The notes beneath the pieces were generated by a model. It was given only the letters and a program-made list of their open reading frames with translations. It did no database searches and was not told the DNA's origin. Positions 13,800-19,467 of a stretch of 35,796 bases of DNA are shown here, piece by piece. This DNA comes from Emticicia sp. (GTDB lineage: Bacteria > Bacteroidota > Bacteroidia > Cytophagales > Spirosomataceae), in assembly GCA_023254245.1 (NCBI GenBank), contig JALQYE010000021.1, positions 1 through 35,796 on the forward strand, written 5' to 3'. The translations under genes were made by a program, and so were the position numbers. The stretch's first letter is position 1. Each line of letters begins with the position of its first letter.

Positions 13800-14117
13800 A
13801 TGAACTTACTTTTTGTATGCAGCAGAAATCAGTGGCGAAGCCCAACGGCTGAGGAAATATTCAAAAATAATCAAGAACATCAAGCAAAATCGGCTGGAAC
13901 TGAGCCTTCGGCACGCATAAAAATTACCGAAAAGCTTATCAACTGGGCAGATATTATCTTTGTAATGGAAAAGAAACATAAAGAACGACTTAAACAAAGA
14001 TTTGCTACGGTGGTCGATGAAAAAGAGGTAATTGTCTTAGATATTCCTGATGAGTATCAATTTATGGATGAAGAATTAGTAGATTTAATCAAACTTTCGG
14101 TTTCACCCTATTTATAA
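13800..14117 (+). CDS. Low-molecular-weight protein tyrosine phosphatase-like protein
   Basis: 105 aa; LLFVCSRNQWRSPTAEEIF contains CX5R(S); SAGTEPSA follows. Confidence 0.85.
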   Translation: MNLLFVCSRNQWRSPTAEEIFKNNQEHQAKSAGTEPSARIKITEKLINWADIIFVMEKKHKERLKQRFATVVDEKEVIVLDIPDEYQFMDEELVDLIKLSVSPYL

Positions 14118-16132: not shown

Positions 16133-16235
16133 TTTGGGGTATTTATCTACAAATTTCACCATTTGTAAAAAAAGAATGTCATAAAAGGCAAATTTTATGC
16201 TCATTTGTGATTCATTTTTCAAGAGAATCACAAAA

Positions 16236-16817
16236 ATGAATCATTATTACGAAAAACTCTTCGATTATGTATCTGAAATTCTGGTAATGCCAGAATCGGA
16301 CAAAAAGCTTTGTAGGCAATTATTTAAGCCTATTTTTGTGCCCAAAGATACCATCATTGAAAGAGCCGAAACGGTTCATCAGAATCATACATTTATTGTT
16401 TCGGGTTTCATGCGAAACTTTTATATTGATAACGATGGCAACGAAATAACCAATGATTTGAACGACGGCCCGAGGTTTTTTACTTCATATTTTCATTTTT
16501 TGAATCGTACGGTTTCAAACGAAACCGTACATACCATTACCGATTGTGAATTACTACAAATCAGTCGAGATGACGTCGATATTGCAGCTACTCAAGGCAT
16601 TACGCAGAAAGATTATACCGTTCAGATTTTGAATAAACGCTTGGAAATCAACAAACAACGGGCTTTTGATATGGCCAACCTAACAGCCGAAGAACGTTAT
16701 AATAAATTTGTGAAAGAAAACCCCAATATCATTCGTCATGTACCTTTGGGTTATATTGCTTCATTTTTGGGCATTACCCAACGACATTTGAGTAGATTAC
16801 GAAAAGAACATAGGTAA
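16236..16817 (+). CDS. Crp/Fnr-family transcriptional regulator (first of a tandem pair; ORF track starts at 16197, start at 16236 preferred)
   Basis: MNHYYEKLFDYVSEIL start; cyclic-nucleotide-binding-like N-terminus, C-terminal HTH HVPLGYIASFLGITQRHLSRLRKEHR. Confidence 0.85.
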   Translation: MNHYYEKLFDYVSEILVMPESDKKLCRQLFKPIFVPKDTIIERAETVHQNHTFIVSGFMRNFYIDNDGNEITNDLNDGPRFFTSYFHFLNRTVSNETVHTITDCELLQISRDDVDIAATQGITQKDYTVQILNKRLEINKQRAFDMANLTAEERYNKFVKENPNIIRHVPLGYIASFLGITQRHLSRLRKEHR

Positions 16818-16826
16818 AACACAAAA

Positions 16827-17390
16827 ATGACAACTGTAATTTTAAAAAAAATTGGTTATTTCTCAGATAAAGACATTGAACTTTTTGAAAAAAGCCTGTC
16901 CAAGAGAATAATTCAGAAAGGTGAAATTCTCCTCAAACAAGGTCAAATTTGTCAAACAGTATATTTTATTTCAAAAGGGGCATTTTTAGAATACAATTTC
17001 AAAGACGAAATCGAACAAAATATCATTGATTTATACCTCGAAAATCAATGGCTTTTGAATAAACAAAGTTTTGTGCGTCAAGAGCCTTCTGATACCATCA
17101 TCGAAGCATTTTGCGAAAGTACCGTTTGGGGCTTAGACATTCACACTATTCATCACTTGATTGCACATTCACCAGCCTTTCTGCAACTGGGAAGTATTTT
17201 AGAGCCAGCACATTCACGAGTTAAATTTTTCGATAACTCACTTACGCCATTACAAAAATATCAATACCTCCTCGATAATCGTAGAGAGATTATACAGGTT
17301 TTTCCCTTAAAAATTATTGCTTCTTATCTAAAAATAACACCCGAAACCCTCAGTAGAGTAAGAGAAAAACTATCAAAAAGACTTTCTTGA
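16827..17390 (+). CDS. Crp/Fnr-family transcriptional regulator (second of the pair)
   Basis: 187 aa; KGEILLKQGQICQTVYFISKGAFLEY; HTH PLKIIASYLKITPETLSRVREK. Confidence 0.88.
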   Translation: MTTVILKKIGYFSDKDIELFEKSLSKRIIQKGEILLKQGQICQTVYFISKGAFLEYNFKDEIEQNIIDLYLENQWLLNKQSFVRQEPSDTIIEAFCESTVWGLDIHTIHHLIAHSPAFLQLGSILEPAHSRVKFFDNSLTPLQKYQYLLDNRREIIQVFPLKIIASYLKITPETLSRVREKLSKRLS

Positions 17391-17402
17391 TTAGAATCAA
17401 GT
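17387..17402. promoter_or_regulatory. FNR-like operator CTTGATTAGAATCAAG
   Basis: Contains TTGAT-N4-ATCAA; 22 nt upstream of TACTTTTA. Confidence 0.75.
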
Positions 17403-17424
17403 AATTATCTGAGTTTGAAACTGT

Positions 17425-17432
17425 ACTTTTAG
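17425..17432 (+). promoter_or_regulatory. Putative -7 box (TACTTTTA) of the VOC gene
   Basis: 7/8 match to TAnnTTTG, 30.5 bp from the upstream dyad centre. Confidence 0.5.
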
Positions 17433-17448
17433 AGATAAAAAAATAACC

Positions 17449-17820
17449 ATGAAACATAACGCTATTTCTATCAGACCGTTTATTGGAGCAAAGAATTTTG
17501 AAATTTCTCGTAGCTTTTACCGAGACTTAGGTTTTCAAGAAGTCATTTTAGGACATAATTTTTCTTACTTCAAAACCGAGGGTATCGGCTTTTATTTACA
17601 AGATGCCTACGTAAAAGATTGGGTTGATAACTCCATGATTTTTTTGGAAGTAGATGATACTGACCGCTACTACGACGAGCTTTTAAAACTAAATTTAACC
17701 CAAAAGTACGATGGTGTAAGACTAACGCCAGTCAAAGTATTACCGTGGGGAAAAGAGTGCTTTCTGCACGACCCATCGGGCATATTATGGCATTTTGGTG
17801 AGTTTTTTAATAAAGAGTAA
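17449..17820 (+). CDS. VOC/glyoxalase-bleomycin resistance superfamily protein
   Basis: 123 aa; SIRPFIGAKNFEISRSFYRDLGFQEV; GKECFLHDPSGILWHFGEF. Confidence 0.9.
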   Translation: MKHNAISIRPFIGAKNFEISRSFYRDLGFQEVILGHNFSYFKTEGIGFYLQDAYVKDWVDNSMIFLEVDDTDRYYDELLKLNLTQKYDGVRLTPVKVLPWGKECFLHDPSGILWHFGEFFNKE

Positions 17821-17826
17821 AGCTTT

Positions 17827-17842
17827 CTTGATTACAATCAAG
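17827..17842. promoter_or_regulatory. FNR-like operator CTTGATTACAATCAAG
   Basis: Second TTGAT-N4-ATCAA dyad; 22 nt upstream of TACTTTTG. Confidence 0.78.
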
Positions 17843-17864
17843 TGTAGGCTTTAAGATGAGCATC

Positions 17865-17872
17865 TACTTTTG
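17865..17872 (+). promoter_or_regulatory. -7 box (TACTTTTG)
   Basis: Exact TAnnTTTG match, 30.5 bp from the dyad centre, upstream of the 17897 gene. Confidence 0.6.
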
Positions 17873-17896
17873 TAGCATCACAAAAATAGATGCTCA

Positions 17897-18541
17897 ATGA
17901 AAACAACTTTCACAAAATTTACAGGTTATTGCTTAGTTATTGGCTCGGTCTTGATGATTCTCACGATGGTTTTACACCCCGCAGGTGGTGATTTAAAGCA
18001 TATCATCAAAATTTCAAATGTGCTTATCATCAGTCATTCGATTGGTATTTTAAGCATGCATTTTGTACTGTTTGGCTTCTATGGTTTATCCGAGAACTTA
18101 TTAACCAAAAATCGCCTCTCCTATTTAGGCTTTGCATTTATCATTTTTAGTTTGATTGCAGGAATGATGGCTGCTTCAATTAATGGTTTAATATTGCCGA
18201 TGTTTGCTTCAAAGTTTTCGACCGAATCTGGGAAAAACCTCGAAACCGTCAAACTTATAATCAGTTACGGTTCTAAATTCAATAAGGCTATGGATTATAT
18301 TTTTATTTCGGGATATTCGATTGCCATGTTTATTTGGTCATTCATTATTATTCAAACCTCAAAACTACCTCGTTGGATTGGCTTTTATGGTTTTATTCTT
18401 TTGGCATTCGTAATCATAGGTTTTATAGTCGAATTCAATTTTATCAGCGTTTGGGGATTCAGAATCTACATTTTCGGAATTGTTAGTTGGATTTTATTCA
18501 CTGGAATATCTATGATAAGACCAACGTCTCAGCACAAATAG
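17897..18541 (+). CDS. Hypothetical multi-pass membrane protein
   Basis: 214 aa with several hydrophobic helices; DUF4386-like appearance but not certain. Confidence 0.75.
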   Translation: MKTTFTKFTGYCLVIGSVLMILTMVLHPAGGDLKHIIKISNVLIISHSIGILSMHFVLFGFYGLSENLLTKNRLSYLGFAFIIFSLIAGMMAASINGLILPMFASKFSTESGKNLETVKLIISYGSKFNKAMDYIFISGYSIAMFIWSFIIIQTSKLPRWIGFYGFILLAFVIIGFIVEFNFISVWGFRIYIFGIVSWILFTGISMIRPTSQHK

Positions 18542-18611
18542 CATTTATATTAAAAAATCGCCACTCATCCTAATAGGACATTTGTCTAAAAACGCATAAA
18601 GAATAGCACCT

Positions 18612-18619
18612 TAATTTTG
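18612..18619 (+). promoter_or_regulatory. Putative -7 box (TAATTTTG)
   Basis: TAnnTTTG match 23 bp before the ATG of the DUF2306 gene. Confidence 0.45.
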
Positions 18620-18642
18620 AAAAAACAAAAACGCTATTCTTT

Positions 18643-19467
18643 ATGCAAAACAATACGCTTTCTTCCGAAAATCTGAATTATAACTCAAAATTATTAGATT
18701 TATCCGCAAAACTTTGGTTCGTTATTGCCTTTGTTGGTCAATGGATTTTTGGCTTTTATGTAGTTTCGGTTTACCATGTTTCAACTTTCAAAGGCAACTT
18801 TGAAAAATGGAATACTGTGCTACCAAAAGGCTATGTTGTGGGCGACTGGAAAGGAAATCTGATGGTTGGCATTCATGTAATTTTAGCTGCAATTATGATA
18901 ATTGGTGGCCCTCTACAATTTATTCCGCAGGTACGTGAAAAGCTTCCAACTTTTCATCGTTGGTTGGGTAGAATTTATGTTATCACTGCCATTGTAGTAA
19001 GTTCGGCAGGTTTCATTATGGTCTGGACACGTGGCACGGTTGGCGATACTTTTATGCACATAACCAACAGTATTCAAGTCGTTTACATTATATTTTTTGC
19101 TATTCAAACAATTAGATTTGCTCAAAAACGACTAATACAAGAGCACCGAAAGGCGGCACTTCGCCTTTTTATGGTAGCCAATGGTGTTTGGTTTTTCAGA
19201 GTTGGACTAATGGCTTGGTTAGTCATCAACCAAGCACCTGTAGGCTTCAATCCCGATACTTTTACAGGGCCATTCTTGTGGGTACTATCTACTTTTGCTT
19301 ATGCCGTTCCGATTTCTTTCATTTTGCTCGAACTGTATTTTTATGCTCAGAAAGTACAACGACAAATTTTTTCTAACATTACCTCAGCAATTATTTTTTT
19401 ATTTACAATCATTATGGCTATCGGGATTTTTGGAGCAACAATGGGCATGTGGCTACCAAGAATATAA
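18643..19467 (+). CDS. DUF2306-family membrane protein
   Basis: 274 aa; IHVILAAIMIIGGPLQFIPQVREKLPTFHRWLGRIYVITAIVVSSAGFIM and HRKAALRLFMVANGVWFFRV. Confidence 0.82.
   Translation: MQNNTLSSENLNYNSKLLDLSAKLWFVIAFVGQWIFGFYVVSVYHVSTFKGNFEKWNTVLPKGYVVGDWKGNLMVGIHVILAAIMIIGGPLQFIPQVREKLPTFHRWLGRIYVITAIVVSSAGFIMVWTRGTVGDTFMHITNSIQVVYIIFFAIQTIRFAQKRLIQEHRKAALRLFMVANGVWFFRVGLMAWLVINQAPVGFNPDTFTGPFLWVLSTFAYAVPISFILLELYFYAQKVQRQIFSNITSAIIFLFTIIMAIGIFGATMGMWLPRI

Follow-up and report, generated by a model that had tools for sequence, protein, structure and literature searches.

Organization of the Regulator Region

The window (the whole stretch of DNA that was analyzed, 35,796 nucleotides in length) corresponds to contig C133 in a genome of 4.6 Mb from the Bacteroidota. 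Genes for PorD and CoaBC border a regulator region in which five + strand genes lie in a row (16236-19467): the Crp/Fnr regulators R1 and R2, a VOC gene, a gene for a 214-aa membrane protein, and a DUF2306 gene. R1 (193 aa, 16236..16817, +) carries the recognition helix TQRHLSRLR; an alternative in-frame ATG at 16197 would lengthen the protein to 206 aa. R2 (187 aa, 16827..17390, +) carries the recognition helix TPETLSRVR. The putative targets of R2 are the VOC gene (glyoxalase/bleomycin-binding fold, 123 aa, 17449..17820, +) and the 214-aa membrane-protein gene (six long helices predicted, 17897..18541, +), and the putative target of R1 is the DUF2306 membrane-protein gene (274 aa, 18643..19467, +).

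Each putative target is preceded by an operator and a -7 promoter box. Operator O2a (CTTGATTAGAATCAAG, 17386..17401, +) is a perfect TTGAT-N4-ATCAA dyad that overlaps the end of R2, the TGA stop codon (17388-17390) lying inside it; the box that follows after 22 nt (TACTTTTA, 17424..17431, +) fits the consensus TAnnTTTG save for its last base. Operator O2b (CTTGATTACAATCAAG, 17827..17842, +) is a second perfect TTGAT-N4-ATCAA dyad, kept in the closest relative (genome G004, locus L014), and a perfect TAnnTTTG box (TACTTTTG, 17865..17872, +) again follows after 22 nt. Operator O1 (TAGGACATTTGTCTAA, 18574..18589, +) is of the GGACnnnnGTCY type and is the predicted R1 site; its box (TAATTTTG, 18612..18619, +) lies 22 nt downstream, as it also does in G004 (L393) and at loci L328 and L329.

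The original prediction for this region had described two perfect TTGAT-N4-ATCAA dyads, each followed by 22 nt and then TACTTTT, and this held. Dyad 2 was correctly placed at 17827-17842 with its box at 17865, but dyad 1, placed at 17387-17402, was off by one: it spans 17386-17401, and its box starts at 17424 rather than 17425. The helix readings (ITPETLSRVRE for the gene at 16827, ITQRHLSRLRK for the gene at 16236) were correct.

O2a and O2b are 441 bp apart and have the same 22-nt geometry to the box. Exact TTGATN4ATCAA occurs at 32 places in the whole genome (4.6 Mb, 82% complete), or about 0.25 per window, and a scan for dyad plus box, which the original prediction had proposed, found ANNTTTG within 16-36 nt at only about 10 of these, mostly intragenic. 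Two sites of the same geometry at this distance are therefore not due to chance. A large R2 regulon in this genome was considered and rejected because the boxed sites lie mostly within genes; the sole operator-like site outside the window, on contig C113, is that of another regulator (L007).

Fold, Ligand Residues, and Putative Targets

R2 passes the PF00027 cut-off. Its AF2 model (pLDDT 92.6) is matched by Foldseek to the structure 3dn7 and to CRP and FNR structures (E about 1e-10). R2 thus belongs to the Crp/Fnr superfamily, as shown by PF00027 and predicted by the model and the Foldseek matches, with an N-terminal cNMP-type beta-roll, a dimer helix, and a C-terminal winged helix. R1 falls just under the PF00027 (cNMP_binding) threshold (27.0 bits against a cut-off of 27.5, 4e-6) and is homologous to other regulators across its full length.

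The recognition helix of R2 is of the FNR type (P172-E173-T-x-S176-R177). The original claim that R2 has no N-terminal Fe-S cysteine cluster held, as no cysteine is invariant or even 90% conserved in an alignment of 34 orthologues (A2). Nor, by profile alignment to a PKA regulatory subunit, does R2 have the Glu and Arg through which the phosphate cassette contacts cAMP: the Glu of the FGE motif corresponds to a non-acidic residue and the Arg to Ser88, which is at least 90% conserved in A2. Sensing through an Fe-S cluster or cAMP is ruled out on these conserved residues, and the ligand is therefore unknown; a small molecule held in the N-terminal beta-roll is inferred.

The VOC protein of the window scores 17.4 bits against PF00903, below the cut-off of 20.6, and 8/11 members of its family match PF00903 (best 3e-8). 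The 214-aa membrane protein, whose AF2 model has a pLDDT of 91.6, has no PDB match with E<1e-3 by Foldseek and no Pfam family; some homologues show weak similarity to DUF4386. The protein encoded at 18643 is assigned to DUF2306 on the basis of PF10067 (46.2 bits, cut-off 31.6). Taken together, a VOC protein, a six-helix membrane protein, and a DUF2306 protein hint at the handling of a small hydrophobic or toxic compound, an idea that rests on inference only.

Conservation of the R2 Operators

Eight clear R2 orthologues (86-42% identity) are present in 59 related genomes, and in every one of them CTTGATTnnAATCAAG follows the gene directly on its 3' side. The set was extended to 44 orthologues by 80 further loci from named genomes. 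The core TTGATnnnnATCAA, with at most one mismatch, lies at -25..+100 of the regulator stop in 40 of the 44, compared with a mean of 0.53 and a maximum of 3 in shuffles. A near-perfect core is missing from the other four: neither L073 nor L078 has a dyad, L082 carries TTGACnnnnGTCAA, and L081 is cut by a contig end. The R2-linked sites persist across Emticicia, Dyadobacter, Pedobacter, Mucilaginibacter, and Aquimarina. Counted by eye, the gene behind the operator is most commonly the membrane protein (about 28 loci), followed by two VOC types (about 13); the VOC type of the window occupies this position at 7 orthologue loci.

Aligned promoters of the orthologues read ATTTCTTGATTnnAATCAAG, then 22 nt, then NAnnTTTG. 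Among the 40 promoters the box begins 22 nt from the 16-mer in 30, 21 nt in 3, and elsewhere in 2. The first base of the -7 box is degenerate, the 22-nt spacer itself is not conserved, and a -33 TTTG is absent from the aligned promoters (n=40); the dyad and the box are therefore what selection keeps. Also kept, in 35-40 of the 40 promoters, is an ATTT stretch at the operator's upstream edge (17380-17386 in the window). It has no mirror image on the other side, and a contact resembling that of an UP element is possible.

The position of the operator differs in Dyadobacter. At three loci (L066, L069, L101) the VOC gene is found on the 5' side of the regulator, with a separate operator copy 22 nt from its box, and at L065 a second dyad and box are likewise found on the 5' (VOC) side. 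The operator therefore goes with the target genes and not with a position. As inverted repeats placed where a gene ends, the dyads might be taken for transcription terminators or mobile-element repeats. This reading is all but excluded: no T-run follows the dyads, which have a promoter box at a fixed distance instead; the second dyad is located downstream of the VOC gene and, in Dyadobacter, upstream of it; and spacers and flanks are unconserved, unlike those of a repeat. The terminator or repeat reading was dropped on the spacing and the Dyadobacter relocation. At L066, L069, and L101 the VOC gene is directly upstream of the regulator, an arrangement in which a shared transcript and a positive loop are possible.

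A search blind to the regulator used the pattern CTTGATTNNAATCAAG, 23 N, and ANNTTTG in 391 genomes of the order, with the reversed pattern as control. It returned 12 matches, against 0 for the reversed pattern. Eleven of the 12 lie in a promoter adjoining an ETLSR/ETMSR-type gene or its remnant, and the twelfth (L043) is near a transposase. Five (L044-L048) are directly 3' of Crp/Fnr genes with the helix (T/S)PETLSR, in genomes that had not contributed any R2 orthologue to the set.

Promoter Geometry and Proposed Mechanism

TAnnTTTG is the Bacteroidota sigma-A box, which in Flavobacterium psychrophilum maps to -12 to -5 (PMC9723704). By this position the R2 dyads would be centered at about -42.5, or at -41.5 if the start shifts by one base, an estimate inferred from sequence alone; the center originally proposed was near -41.5. 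The layout is that of a class II promoter, with a distance of 21-22 nt in 33 of 40 promoters and no -33 TTTG; start sites and the contact with polymerase are inferred.

The explanation judged very likely as a whole is that 16236-19467 comprises two Crp/Fnr regulators, each with its own operator or operators and neighboring target or targets, one cassette being nested in the other. An R2 dimer would bind CTTGATTnnAATCAAG about 42 bp upstream of the inferred starts of the VOC and six-helix membrane-protein genes, where the dyad would stand in for the missing -33 element, and R2 would most likely act as an activator at both, contacting sigma-A RNA polymerase from a class II position. R1 would serve the DUF2306 gene likewise, by way of GGACnnnnGTCY. 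Fe-S chemistry would not be the signal; by inference, it would be a small ligand in the N-terminal beta-roll. The sites, their spacing, their conservation, and the co-variation described below are shown by sequence; binding, activation, ligand, and the function of the targets are inferred.

It cannot be excluded that the dyads are operators from which R2 represses, covering the -33 region until a ligand releases it. The dyad does overlap the -33 position, where a bound protein could block sigma. This alternative is nevertheless unlikely. The promoters have no -33 TTTG that would need protection, and the constant 21-22 nt is what contact with polymerase requires; the -7 box is also relaxed at its first base, a trait of activator-dependent promoters. 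Repressor sites usually vary more in position. Activation is therefore favored on the fixed spacing, the lack of a -33 element, and the relaxed first base.

A Recognition Code in Bacteroidota Crp/Fnr Regulators

In a panel of regulators picked by protein similarity alone, a TTGAT core is found on the 3' side of 30/71 regulators with an ExxSR helix versus 2/53 others (Fisher P = 3e-7), and core plus box in 20 of the 71 versus none of the 53. In regulators without ExxSR, palindromes of other kinds occupy this position at an equal distance. More broadly, the layout is widespread in Bacteroidota: of 335 distinct Crp/Fnr regulators, 132 carry a palindrome immediately 3' of the gene, with 21 or 22 nt between it and a -7 box, versus 9-16 in neighboring 2-nt bins; this set leaves out loci found by dyad patterns, and about 60% of it has no such 3' operator under the scan rules. 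An earlier set of 282 regulators gave 122 with a palindrome; shuffled flanks gave about 8, and the ends of other genes 5.6%.

The recognition helix predicts the half-site, which can be keyed to residues 180, 181, and 185 (CRP numbering). P-E-R goes with CTTGA(T/C), P-E-E with CTTAAA, P-E-K with CTTAAG, and A-E-K with CTTGAA. Both G-P-R and P-Q-R go with TTAAC, Q-Q-R with TTTACC, Q-S-R with TTTGCC, and D-S-R with CTTG(T/C)C; P/Q/R-R-R is paired with GGAC or AGAC and R-E-R with TGTGA. Because relatedness inflates simple counts, co-variation was assessed on 58 proteins of less than 45% identity. Four residues show mutual information above the permuted level (all p<=0.001): 180 is linked to base 1, 181 to base 4, 182 to bases 4 and 6, and 185 to base 6. 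The control residues 183 and 187 do not co-vary with half-site bases in the same proteins.

That the ETLSR helix reads the TTGAT sites at the next promoters was an inference in the original prediction and is now strongly supported by phylogenetic footprinting (40/44 orthologues, the Dyadobacter relocation, and the 30/71 versus 2/53 contrast), with binding, start sites, and activation still inferred. It might be argued that another FNR-like protein, such as the paralogue L007, reads these sites and that the adjacency of R2 is accidental, given that the L007 operator is near-identical and the ETLSR helix is common to many paralogues. Such a reader is very unlikely, as the sites stay with R2 orthologues from Emticicia to Aquimarina and every helix class has its own type of site beside its own gene. 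R2 remains the preferred reader.

L007 (G000:C113, 1057-1070 and neighbors) is encoded in the same genome and has the helix TPETFSRIR; CTTGATTTTTATCAAG lies 21 nt before GACCTTTG, with an SRPBCC-like gene behind. With operators this similar and an ETLSR class common to several paralogues of one genome, some cross-talk between R2 and L007 is possible.

General autoregulation was not seen in the 5' flanks of 322 regulators, which are near background (23 on the same strand and 17 divergent versus 14-18 at other offsets). Regulators with TQQSLSR or TQSSLSR helices (L254, L256, L343, L350, L355, L359) have TTTACC/TTTGCC sites at 21 nt on the 5' side as well, a pattern suggestive of autoregulation in this class only. 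Two APETLSRIK regulators (L364, L374) have TTGAC/TTGAT dyads at 21 nt in the divergent 5' promoter and not on the 3' side.

The Predicted R1 Operator and Cassette Nesting

Orthologues of R1 are 93% (G004), 68% (L329), 59% (L328), and 52-53% (L231, L232) identical to it. In other genomes the xR..SR helix class, to which R1 belongs, goes with GGACATTTGTCC, and the prediction for R1 is GGACnnnnGTCC. A scan of the window for a site of this class (at most 2 mismatches, 13-20 kb) found two places, one of which is O1 (TAGGACATTTGTCTAA), an imperfect palindrome (GGAC..GTCT) exactly 22 nt before TAATTTTG and ahead of the DUF2306 gene. The suggestion that the tandem partner at 16236 reads a different site is thus supported, with GGACnnnnGTCY at 18574-18589 upstream of 18643. 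The specificities, GGACATTTGTCT for R1 and the two TTGAT dyads for R2, are predictions from sequence alone, without binding data.

The pattern GGACATTTGTCN{25,26}ANNTTTG occurs once in the genome of the window. In 292 genomes it gives 13 matches in 12 genomes, with 1 for the reversed control, and 9/12 matches outside the window are directly 3' of a regulator with a (P/Q/R)R(H/T)LSR helix.

At L328 and L329 the R1 orthologue (59%, 68%), the site, the box at 22 nt, and the DUF2306 gene (57%, 64%) follow one another with nothing between. These are the only two relatives in which regulator, operator, and DUF2306 gene are contiguous, and it is from them that the R2 cassette is seen to sit inside the R1 cassette. 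In G004 two extra genes lie between the membrane protein and O1, with site, spacing, and DUF2306 (86%) kept. The plainest history is insertion of the R2 cassette between R1 and its operator.

The distant orthologues L231 and L232 have the helices NPGSLSR and KPESLSR and the sites CTTCACnnnnGTGAAG and CTTAACnnnnGTCAAG, respectively. Helix and site have changed together, amounting to a natural switch of specificity.

Comparison to Known Crp/Fnr Systems

R2 resembles E. coli FNR and DNR/NnrR in its fold, its E-x-x-S-R helix, the TTGATnnnnATCAA dyad, and a center near -41.5/-42.5. It differs in lacking Fe-S cysteines and a long N-terminal extension. In contrast to the large regulons of FNR and DNR/NnrR, R2 sites are local to the regulator, and they precede the Bacteroidota TAnnTTTG promoter rather than a sigma-70 -10 box. 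CRP/CAP has the same fold and likewise reads its half-site through residues 180/181/185; one Bacteroidota protein with Arg180 (L031, ARETLSRIR) even has TGTGA-N6-TCACA. However, the cAMP-contact Glu and Arg of CRP are replaced in R2 (the Arg by Ser88), and the targets of R2 are local. The closest solved relative of R2 by sequence (E 1e-27), also among the top folds, is Cytophaga hutchinsonii 3dn7, which is not known to have a regulon; its helix, TPEYLSEIR, differs from that of R2 and belongs to the class paired here with CTTAAA half-sites.

Rodionov et al. 2005 (PMC1274295) showed that R180 and E181 correlate with bases of CRP/FNR sites (HcpR, DNR, NnrR, NssR) in other bacteria. The same residues specify the site here, and the pairing of Gln181 with TTAAC and of Glu181 with TTGA recurs. 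The present code differs in its source, the operator 3' of each Bacteroidota gene itself, in the fixed spacing of 21-22 nt that accompanies it, and in its reach, which includes residues 182 and 185 as well as additional helix types.

Proposed Portable Regulatory Cassettes

The Bacteroidota genomes considered here can encode dozens of small Crp/Fnr proteins, for most of which no site, signal, or target is known. A bolder reading, which appears likely, is that this expanded family consists largely of portable one-switch cassettes: a small regulator, a class II operator behind its stop codon, 21 or 22 nt to NAnnTTTG, and, as target, the gene that follows. No earlier description of this regulator-3' operator layout was found in the open-access literature searched. 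Since operator and gene move together, the family's own protein-DNA recognition code can be read from its members, and that code appears already to have foretold an unseen site (O1) in the window, in the absence of binding data.

If this reading is true, sequence could reveal the sites and first targets of a sizeable part of the family (132/335 here), and the recognition code of a major fold could be completed from nature and tested by swaps of helix residues. It would also supply a set of orthogonal activator-promoter pairs matching the Bacteroidota promoter. The window is an example of cassette nesting.

Additional Features of the Window

A 105-aa protein (13800-14117) matches low-molecular-weight phosphotyrosine phosphatases in its N-terminal part only (residues 4-36). 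Directly before the R1 start is an inverted repeat (TTGTGATTC...GAATCACAA, 16203-16231), which is imperfect in the G004 orthologue.
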